Assembly (NCBI RefSeq): GCF_024692365.1
Contig: NZ_JAILMR010000044.1
Coordinates: forward strand, 1-64,000
Direction of reading: 5' to 3'
Origin: Ruminococcus sp.
GTDB taxonomy: Bacteria > Bacillota > Clostridia > Oscillospirales > Ruminococcaceae
DNA length: 64,000 nt
Of the stretch, positions 15,159-28,777 are shown piece by piece. The notes under the pieces are model-generated. The model did not search any database and was not told the DNA's origin. It saw only the letters and a program-made list of their open reading frames with translations. Every line of letters begins with the position of its first letter. The first letter of the stretch is position 1. A program made the translations under genes and the position numbers.

Positions 15159-15267
15159 GTTGCCGTCCGATGTGACGGCTACTCCTTTTATTATTAAGTT
15201 GATGATAGCATATTTGGGTGAGGATGTCAAGGTGATAGCATAGCAGAGCTGAGATAAGAATGCCAAA

Positions 15268-15343
15268 GAGTAGAGCTTTTGATCAAACTTTTCGCGAAAA
15301 GTTTGCGAGGAGTTTGAGGGGCGGAGTCCCTCAATCACCAAGG
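15268..15343 (+). repeat. Left terminal repeat of a 621-bp gene-free element
   Basis: Starts GAGTAGAGCTTTTGATCAA, includes the perfect 20-bp palindrome at 15285-15304 centred on TTTCGCGAAA, then hairpin TTGAGGG-gcggagt-CCCTCAA. It aligns over about 75 bases with the reverse complement of 15816-15888. Differences between the copies fall in paired positions of both hairpins and preserve pairing. Confidence 0.75.
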
Positions 15344-15346
15344 CAA

Positions 15347-15450
15347 GATACCAAAATGTACTACAAAGTACCAGAGCGAACGAAATGATACCAAAAGGTG
15401 CGCGGGCATACCAACTTGTACGAGCGTGTACCAAAATATACGACCGTATC
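15347..15450. repeat. 10-bp-period degenerate repeat array A
   Basis: About ten consecutive units of NNNRTACSAN in strict 10-base phase (for example ATACCAA, GTACTAC, GTACCAG, ATACCAA, GTACGAG, GTACCAA, ATACGAC). It lies in non-coding DNA and is flanked by inverted arms GCGCGGGCAT (15400-15409) and ATGCCCGCGC (15469-15478), with CATACCAA and TTGGTATG nested inside. Related arrays occur at 22.39 and 28.41 kb. 10 is not a multiple of three, so it is not coding. Confidence 0.8.
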
Positions 15451-15480
15451 ATTTGGTATGCGTGAACGATGCCCGCGCAT

Positions 15481-15713
15481 GAAATCGGACAGCGAAGTGA
15501 ATCCGATTTCTCGACCCGAGGGACGAGGGGCGACCTGATACCGCAGTACGTCTGAAATTAACGTTTAGCAACTGTACTGCGTAACAGCCATGTTCTTATC
15601 AAAAGTACTGCCGCTGACAATGTCGCCCCTCTCTCCGTTCGGGTCGAGCCGTCAAAAACGCTATCGCTGTTTGACGGCGGTCGCGGACAATATCTCCGCA
15701 CGAAGTTTGTCCG
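15481..15713. repeat. Nested inverted repeats inside the 621-bp element
   Basis: In order: GAAATCGGA/TCCGATTTC (15481-15510); a 26-bp imperfect pair of arms at 15511-15534 and 15622-15647 (both containing CGACCCGA and AGGGGCGAC or their complement), enclosing about 87 bases; CCGTCAAA/TTTGACGG (15649-15677); CGGACAA/TTGTCCG (15684-15713). The density of hairpins suggests a MITE-like or structured-RNA element. The 131-codon minus-strand ORF across it is Arg-rich and has no family signal. Confidence 0.65.
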
Positions 15714-15815
15714 TGTGGGATTATTTTGTTCACGCTCGGAATTTTGGGATTGCCCGCGCCGTGTAATCGGAAGATAGTCTGCTATTGCTTTCTTTGTGTT
15801 CACATCGCTTTTGTG

Positions 15816-15888
15816 CCTTGACCGAGAGGCTCTGCCTCTCGAGCTCTCCGCAAGCCTTTCGCGAAAGGCTTGACCCAAAGCTCCCCTC
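15816..15888 (-). repeat. Right terminal repeat of the 621-bp element (inverted copy)
   Basis: The reverse complement reads GAGGGGAGCTTTGGGTCAAG and then the perfect 20-bp palindrome (15852-15871) AAGCCTTTCG plus its complement, then GAGAGG-cagag-CCTCTC. Compared with the left copy, AAACTTTTCG became AAGCCTTTCG with matching changes on the other arm. Confidence 0.75.
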
Positions 15889-15971
15889 CTTGGCAGTTCA
15901 CACTCACGTTCTGCTACCCTCCCCCTCCTAATCACCCCCTCCACTTTTTTCACAAAAACTACCTCACCCTA

Positions 15972-22390: not shown

Positions 22391-22450
22391 GTACCAAAAT
22401 ATACGAACGGGTACCAAACTATACGACCGTATACCAACACATACGAAAGG
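22391..22450. repeat. 10-bp-period degenerate repeat array B
   Basis: Six perfect-phase units: GTACCAA, ATACGAA, GTACCAA, ATACGAC, ATACCAA, ATACGAA, each separated by three variable bases (AAT, CGG, ACT, CGT, CAC). It lies between the gpx promoter and the terminator of the NrdD-like gene. Several unit combinations are shared with arrays A and C. Confidence 0.85.
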
Positions 22451-22867: not shown

Positions 22868-23255
22868 GACCTTAATCGATTAAATATGCACAATAACACA
22901 GTGTATTTTTTGGCAGAGTTCACGAAGAACGGTTCATATTATAGTATGCTTCGCGGATTGTTAAGCTGTAATAACGCGGAGTTTCGGGGACAGTGGGGCA
23001 TTGTTAAAAAATCCACGATTTGAAGATAGGCACATAGTCAGACACTATATATTGTGTCTGAGAGCAAGTGTCTTTGCAATTTCGCAGACTGTCCGCGGAG
23101 AGTGCATATTTTCATGGCTTTCAGCCATAATATAGTAAACGCCATTAATTTCAAGACATTCAGTGCTCACAGCCACAAAAATCACAGCGTCTGCAAGCGC
23201 TGAATGCAGAAATTATAATGTCGTTAACTATAACCTCAAATAAAGTAAAGGACTG
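22868..23255. other. Non-coding stretch upstream of ypeB
   Basis: No gene recognised. It contains CAGACAC-tatatatt-GTGTCTG (about 23039-23062) and ATGGCT-ttc-AGCCAT (about 23114-23129), both possible hairpins, and degenerate AT-rich sequence. A sporulation-sigma promoter for ypeB could be here but I cannot identify one. Confidence 0.4.
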
Positions 23256-28353: not shown

Positions 28354-28406
28354 TAATTTCGATAAAATTAATAAATATAACTTAATAATTTGTTCAAATT
28401 TTTCTT

Positions 28407-28545
28407 ATACCACTTGATACCAAACCATACGACCGTATACGAAAAGATACGAAATTATACGAGCCAATACCAAACTATACGAACGGGTACGAGTTGATAC
28501 CAACGTATACGAGATCATACGAAGGGCTTCGGCGGCATACGAAAT
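28407..28545. repeat. 10-bp-period degenerate repeat array C
   Basis: Fourteen positions in exact 10-base phase from 28407, thirteen intact: RTAC followed by SA and one variable base, then three variable bases. Cores run ATACCAC, ATACCAA, ATACGAC, ATACGAA, ATACGAA, ATACGAG, ATACCAA, ATACGAA, GTACGAG, ATACCAA, ATACGAG, ATACGAA, one lost unit, ATACGAA. It lies between the divergent promoters of the EAL gene and the queuosine operon. Confidence 0.9.
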
Positions 28546-28588
28546 ATTTCATTAAATGCGTGCTTAGGTAAATAATCCGTTAAAGGGC

Positions 28589-28617
28589 TTGACTTTATAT
28601 TATAATGGTGTTATAAT
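28589..28617 (+). promoter_or_regulatory. Promoter of the queuosine operon
   Basis: TTGACT (28589-28594), 17 bases, perfect TATAAT (28612-28617). It starts a leader of about 150 nt. Confidence 0.82.
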
Positions 28618-28623
28618 GTATCC

Positions 28624-28772
28624 CGACAGTTCGCTTGCGCCATCCTGTCATATGCCTGCAAATGGCATAGAAACAAAACCAGGGCACATAATGGTATTCG
28701 CTTGGGTCGGAAGACTCATGCTTATATTCTGTGCGCCTGCATTTTTTTGCGGACGCATTATTTTTTTGGAGG
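28624..28772 (+). promoter_or_regulatory. Structured leader with attenuator upstream of queD (riboswitch candidate)
   Basis: Non-coding leader holding hairpin TATGCC-tgcaaat-GGCATA, a GACAG/CTGTC hairpin, and a possible closing pair CCGAC/GTCGG. It ends in an imperfect terminator TGCGCCTGCA/TGCGGACGCA (28732-28757) and a seven-T run (28761-28767) directly abutting the Shine-Dalgarno GGAGG (28768-28772). The arrangement fits ligand control of transcription or translation. preQ1 is the expected ligand for queuosine genes, but I cannot match it to preQ1-I or -II consensus. Confidence 0.55.
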
Positions 28773-28777
28773 ATAAA

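Follow-up and report, generated by a model that had tools for sequence, protein, structure and literature searches.

What is a run of short units, repeated at an exact period of 10 bp, doing between the genes of a Ruminococcus genome? The question is raised by a stretch of 64,000 nucleotides (hereafter the window) in which such a run, array C, has EAL/GGDEF and queuosine genes as its neighbours. A preliminary description of the window had given array C as 14 positions in 10-base phase, 13 of them intact, and had listed two further arrays with the same unit and phase. A recount confirmed this layout as well as the two other arrays, A and B (Table 1). The single broken unit of array C is CTTCGGCGGC.

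Table 1. Location of the arrays and of the features associated with them (window positions unless a locus is named; G151 and G153 are related genomes)
Feature	Location	Strand	Remarks
Array C	28407-28542	+	14 positions, exactly phased at 10 bp; RTACSA intact in 13
Array B	22391-22446	+	6/6 phased units intact
Array A	15348-15443	+	10 positions, 7 intact; runs into palindrome
Hairpin-forming end of array A	15404-15463		Dispersed element with many genome copies; fold z -2.3
Lineage-specific insertion holding array C	28403-28564		162 bp; 26 bp in G151, 13 bp in G153
Insertion holding array A	15233-15942		~710 bp; 53 and 21 bp in G151 and G153
Promoter-like TTGACT-17-TATAAT, queuosine operon	28589-28617	+	Downstream of array C; read from sequence
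In-frame array in linker, ComEA-like protein	L044:9726-10604
In-frame array in linker, cadherin-like protein	L048:2258-3256
In-frame array in linker, GHL10 lipoprotein	L058:12417-13625

The main signal in these arrays is their phasing. On the + strand of the window, almost all pairs of RTACSA are spaced 10, 20, 30... bp apart, and shuffles of the window under a dinucleotide model contained no chain of three or more phased units. Single RTACSA motifs occur 153 times in the window compared with 94 expected, and part of this excess consists of array units. The units seem to have been drawn from a limited pool, as the preliminary description had supposed: the free 4-mers seen most often in 225 units are CCGT, GCGT, AAAT, AAGT, and AACG, and the free bases are non-random, being mostly NCGT after CGA and mostly AANN after CCA. 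In addition, the C and G flavours of the unit tend to alternate (119 alternating steps vs 42 repeats). The arrays are poor in stop codons in every frame. In arrays B and C, folding does not exceed that of shuffled versions, giving no RNA or single-strand structure, and the window has no match in Rfam.

Several known kinds of repeat were considered for the arrays and rejected. CRISPR arrays consist of repeats of ~21-40 bp with unique spacers and have cas genes nearby; here, the repeats are 10-bp units with 4-base gaps next to EAL/GGDEF and queuosine genes, in agreement with the initial view that this is not a CRISPR. A DNA uptake sequence is a single short motif that is strongly over-represented genome-wide, and this reading was set aside because RTACSA is only mildly above expectation and the phasing dominates. 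An RNA hairpin or terminator was rejected on the folding and Rfam results given above, and so was a coding-only repeat. As for a transcription insulator, another role that had been suggested, no evidence was found.

Both hexamers of the putative queuosine promoter are kept in three relatives. A separate observation concerns the leader between this promoter and the start of the PTPS (queD-like) gene (28620-28777). Its conservation reaches 94% in two relatives and 85% in a third, with an ATGCC..GGCAT hairpin kept, but a search of Rfam with E values allowed up to 1 gave no match. This leader is a candidate for a riboswitch or leader RNA of a kind not yet described.

G000, the 3.68-Mb genome from which the window comes and which is of a Ruminococcus albus-type lineage, contains 206 exact matches to three phased units, compared with none for a reversed-pattern control, so that the family lies far from chance; the pattern with 9-bp spacing likewise gave no match. 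More than 100 intergenic gaps of this genome carry arrays. The suspected preference for intergenic positions was borne out in 450 kb of G000, where 37 of 44 arrays lie entirely between genes (binomial P ~1e-24). A simple ORF caller assigns 85% of this sample to coding sequence; its stretches were picked around arrays, a choice that leaves the intergenic test unaffected. No strong association with gene orientation, which had also been envisaged, appeared in this sample: arrays lie on either strand relative to neighbouring genes. No start-codon bias of the arrays was seen either. One three-unit match, in an M50 peptidase gene, was put down to chance.

A survey of 149 genomes of the family found a three-unit match only in G000. 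Among 29 genomes of the genus, of which G149-G153 are compared here with G000, four were positive with the strict pattern, namely G000 (206 matches), G151 (28), G150 (7), and G153 (2), and array numbers differ ~20-fold between relatives. Pure RTGCSA arrays were searched for across the genus and none was found; two-unit RTGC counts are weakly raised in G153. Public genomes were also scanned for four phased units. The matches were mostly simple identical tandem repeats (e.g. ATACC runs), which were set aside, and most of those with varied free bases fall in homologous genes, all members of the DUF6291 family considered below.

Comparison with relatives revealed that the arrays are lineage-specific, expanding and contracting by whole units. 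The window is collinear with G151 and G153 from 13 to 31 kb (81-88% identity), and the insertions that hold arrays A and C are almost wholly missing there (Table 1). In the region of array B, the relatives are shorter by 40 bp, which is exactly four units, and keep a decayed remnant of about two units. Arrays shared elsewhere also differ in length, with 40-bp block expansions in G151 vs nine units in G000. Together with three additional units in the DUF6291 gene, these differences uphold the earlier idea of a dispersed, expanding family, and variation in copy number, which had been proposed for testing between strains, is seen between species. The insertion at array A contains copies of multicopy dispersed (MITE-like) repeats, and array A lies among multicopy hairpin repeats; one class of arrays belongs to such elements. 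Array C stands alone, without a hairpin element, as do many other arrays including B. MITEs are recognized by terminal inverted repeats, a target-site duplication, and many near-identical copies; comparison with relatives revealed no clear target-site duplication at array C.

Other dispersed repeats were also noted. A ~280-bp repeat beside array A (15621-15898) has dozens of copies in G150, G151, and G153, and a ~106-bp hairpin-forming repeat (23127-23233; fold z -5.8, no Rfam match) is present in G151, G152, and G153 in numerous copies that are 84-93% identical to it. Moreover, GTACAAAAACGTACAA recurs many times in G150 and G151 (e.g. G150:C5:406455-406470) as a small dispersed palindrome, and a similar GTTGTACGTTTTTGTACAAC / GTTGCACAAAAACGTGCAAC hairpin is present near the DUF6291 genes of several Ruminococcus species.

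The preliminary description had held that a 10-base period cannot be coding. This was wrong: three units make ten codons, so the period can be coding, and a number of genes contain arrays in frame, most notably within the DUF6291 linker. In G000, they are found in frame in the genes of DUF6291, a ComEA-like protein, and a cadherin-like secreted protein, and in its relative G151 in a GHL10 lipoprotein gene. Such insertion into linkers resembles that of the Rickettsia palindromic elements. Copies that are in frame in unrelated genes are as compatible with a mobile repeat as with a binding site. The arrays might then be a selfish repeat and nothing else: a MITE-like minisatellite that grows by slippage, spreads into intergenic DNA and into protein linkers that tolerate it, and has no important host protein bound to it. 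For such a repeat, the DUF6291 gene would be one more insertion site or the historical source. These in-frame copies, the lineage-specific insertions (arrays A, C, and several others), the array class that sits in dispersed hairpin elements, and the block changes of 30 and 40 bp are all in its favour, and fast gain and loss between species is what is expected of selfish or neutral repeats. The evidence that bears against it comes from the DUF6291 family itself.

DUF6291 (PF19808) is listed in Pfam with function not known, and our literature search found no paper that names it. G000 has one DUF6291 gene, whose 7-unit array codes for the linker that follows a conserved C.KN..NI.KRW motif, reading ..DTTVYDRIP.DT..; the orthologue in G151 has four units, an in-frame difference of 30 bp. 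The RTACSA unit and its phase are found both in this linker and in the DUF6291 linkers of unrelated phages and bacteria, and phages in IMG/VR carry DUF6291 with arrays. From IMG/VR, 69 non-redundant phage DUF6291 genes were retrieved by protein similarity of the N-terminal domain only, which avoids circularity. Compared with synonymous-codon shuffles, identity at lag 10 in the linker is strongly raised in the NIxKRW class (z 14.3, 29 genes) and also in the other three subclasses (z 6.7, 6.6, and 3.3). A lag of 10 is not a multiple of three, and this excess over synonymous codons goes beyond the constraint of the protein. Linkers of the main class contain 3.28 RTACSA on average vs 1.14 in the codon-shuffle comparison. 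Among the DUF6291 classes, the linker units are RTACSA, AACCCA, GCAAA, ATAACA, ATGCAA, and others. The array is a DNA feature of much of the DUF6291 family, and its sequence goes with the protein subtype. That unrelated phage genes have class-specific arrays at an equivalent spot, beyond codon constraint, argues against a purely selfish repeat. Other DUF6291 subtypes, on the viral contigs L267, L305, L307, and L329, have intragenic arrays with different 10-bp units (AACCCA, AACCAA, AGCAAA, and CACGAA).

The neighbours of DUF6291 in phages include a DnaB helicase, Toprim-DnaB, and an AAA_25 ATPase, as well as single-strand annealing and YqaJ recombination proteins; in Vibrio phage BT-1011, an annotated DnaC/DnaI loader adjoins it. 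The C-terminal parts of DUF6291 match Phg_2220_C and replisome organizers. Furthermore, the 60 bp that follow the intragenic arrays are AT-rich (72% vs 63%, P 1e-4, 30 DUF6291 genes). In the lambda O-type origin, iterons ITN1-4 and an AT-rich region lie inside the initiator gene. The DUF6291 genes have a comparable layout, with phased direct repeats inside the gene between domains, then an AT-rich tract and, in phages, a location in replication modules. They differ from lambda O in their 10-bp one-turn units (vs ~18-bp lambda iterons), in their protein family, and in the chromosome-wide copies of the array that come without an AT-rich tract. The arrays of the window depart from the lambda O-type layout in being intergenic, and the DNA that follows the chromosomal arrays of G000 has no such tract (57% AT vs an intergenic mean of 62%). 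The AlphaFold2 model of DUF6291 has a mean pLDDT of 84.5 and a long helix (46-86). A Foldseek search with the domain returned nothing significant and no solved relative, so that a DNA-binding fold is at most putative.

The unit also changes together with one residue of the protein. Of the 25 genes with phased units whose helix ends in Ile or Val, 24 have A as the third base of the unit; with Ala at this position (13 genes), the third base is mixed (G, A, or C), i.e. units are of the RT(A/G/C)C kind (Fisher P 9e-4 for the contrast, a statistic that ignores kinship). The same is seen within the clade. G000 and G151 have NIAKRW with pure RTAC linkers, G153 has NARKRW with the linker GTGCCA-ATACGA-ATGCCA-ATACCA, and G150 has NANKRW with ATGCGG-ATCCGA-ATACCA-ATGCCG. 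The Ala proteins with their mixed linkers led to the prediction that the scattered arrays of G153 would be mixed too and would have been missed by the strict pattern. With three relaxed units (RTVCSA), the counts are 214 in G000, 39 in G151, 25 in G153, 11 in G150, and 2 in G152, with a control of 0 in all of them; seven further genomes of the genus, G149 among them, have none. The prediction held for G153, which rises from 2 strict to 25 relaxed matches, 23 of them containing G or C, whereas G000 rises only from 206 to 214. G151 has Ile, yet mixed arrays make up roughly a quarter of its total, and the arrays of G150 are mostly RTAC, with no mixed one among those in the fetched loci. As these two genomes are less clean, we take the covariation, which within the clade rests on four related species, as support and not as proof. 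Concerted evolution, by exchange between the intragenic and the dispersed arrays, could also make arrays alike without selection by the protein.

Further examination of the DUF6291 gene of the R. albus clade revealed that it lies between ABC-transporter-type and secreted-enzyme-type genes, with no phage genes in the stretch read around it. This orphan gene is syntenic in G000, G151, G153, and G150, which share its flanking sequence, and every genome with at least 11 array matches has it. Its N-domain has a dN/dS of 0.06 between G000 and G151 and of 0.09-0.25 in the other computable comparisons, and its C-terminal domain is conserved as well; by these values, the orphan gene is under purifying selection. 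Such conservation, and a unit that tracks one protein residue, are further points against a repeat that is purely selfish, an explanation which we now regard as unlikely.

It is therefore DUF6291 that we put forward as the partner of the arrays. We consider it fairly probable, on comparative sequence evidence, that the arrays are iteron-like sites for a domesticated phage DUF6291 initiator, spaced so that every turn of the helix takes one protein. A single 10-bp unit, with RTACSA and four preferred bases, would bind one DUF6291 subunit, and the array would line up the subunits along one face of the DNA. Among the roles first proposed, a protein platform reading one DNA face is now the most likely, with DUF6291 as the candidate protein. 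In phages, DUF6291 would be the replication initiator, and the intragenic array and its AT-rich tract would serve as origin, perhaps also as operator. The R. albus clade would have retained one orphan gene, with no prophage visible around it, and its iteron array would have been copied to more than 100 mainly intergenic places, partly within MITE-like hairpin elements; MITE-borne spread and use by a protein are not mutually exclusive. Since the chromosomal arrays have no AT-rich tract, they would most likely bind the resident protein without firing, and probably are binding platforms and not origins, acting as a titration sink or as a local architectural or regulatory platform. Binding by DUF6291, its initiator role in R. 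albus, and an effect on the chromosome are what we infer from these patterns, the last being the least certain step. The wider proposal, that a domesticated phage origin-binding protein organises DNA or regulates genes chromosome-wide through more than 100 phased arrays that co-evolve with one recognition residue, is tentative, and we hold it to be possible rather than probable.

The arrays might instead be anti-phage decoys that sequester the initiator when a DUF6291 phage infects the cell. They match the iterons of phage DUF6291 genes and have no AT-rich tract, and precedents exist in which such DNA blocks phage replication: with lambda, replicative inhibition requires the cloned iterons ITN3-4 (PMC3349717), and in Streptococcus phage Sfi21, PER is based on the origin and depends on copy number (PMC6356513). 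In these cases, too, extra copies of initiator sites occur without a full replicon; however, they are plasmid or prophage fragments, and a protective effect of the R. albus arrays is putative. No R. albus phage with a DUF6291 initiator was found, the arrays follow the specificity of the resident protein across species, and the orphan gene is conserved without a surrounding prophage. A decoy function thus appears improbable. It is still harder to see the arrays as auxiliary origins or replication-restart sites at which the resident DUF6291 loads replication proteins. The conserved, replisome-organizer-like C-terminal domain would suit such a role; but the AT-rich tract of the gene arrays is missing from the chromosomal ones, more than 100 extra origins would be harmful, and the ~20-fold difference in array number between relatives does not fit, so that we think it very improbable. 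Finally, DNA uptake signals or transcription terminator repeats, which are suggested by intergenic, multicopy arrays with one hairpin-forming class, can practically be dismissed given the modest excess of single RTACSA even with array units included, the dominant phasing, the absence of folding in arrays B and C, and the occurrence of arrays on either strand relative to neighbouring genes.

With DUF6291-bound iterons as the preferred reading, parts of the picture have counterparts elsewhere. In work on PLE satellites and the Odn nuclease, RepA and ori form specificity pairs, the DNA-binding part of the initiator covarying with the iterons (PMC8263062). DUF6291 and its repeats covary in the same way, although the PLE iterons are three ~30-bp repeats in an intergenic origin and have no dispersed copies. 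The initiator DnaA is titrated on the chromosome by copies of its sites (PMC12371093), as is putatively the case for DUF6291, whose sites differ in being phased multi-unit arrays for a phage-type initiator in one small clade. The intergenic TAACTGA direct repeats of Beggiatoaceae (PMC4679880) also form more than 100 mainly intergenic short tandem arrays that are patchy between lineages and change in length by whole units; however, these are identical 7-mers placed end to end, most of them immediately before start codons, with no cognate protein reported. An assignment to such heptamer arrays was rejected in view of the 10-bp period, the variable bases, and the lack of start-codon bias. BrickBuilt of Porphyromonas gingivalis is a minisatellite-MITE with a 23-bp unit (PMC4596501). 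Some of our arrays are likewise tandem repeats carried in a multicopy intergenic MITE-like element, but BrickBuilt always lies in its MITE, whereas many of ours, C and B among them, are free-standing. A literature search found no description of these 10-bp phased arrays. The first impression that no such element had been described is thus partly right: the architecture of iterons in an initiator gene is known from lambda O, and a chromosomal dispersal was not found described. Intragenic iterons, initiator-iteron covariation, and short intergenic arrays with other periods are all known, and it is the dispersal over the chromosome that is unusual.

If the proposed role of DUF6291 is true, it would provide a readable code of one residue and one base for an uncharacterised protein family, and the units of the other DUF6291 subtypes would be a ready set for working out this recognition code. 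It also offers a testable function, that of an origin-binding initiator, for a Pfam family present in phages of several phyla, and an origin layout in which units of one helical turn are hidden inside coding sequence. For the R. albus clade, it would be a natural case in which the sites of an initiator have spread over the host chromosome and change together with the protein.
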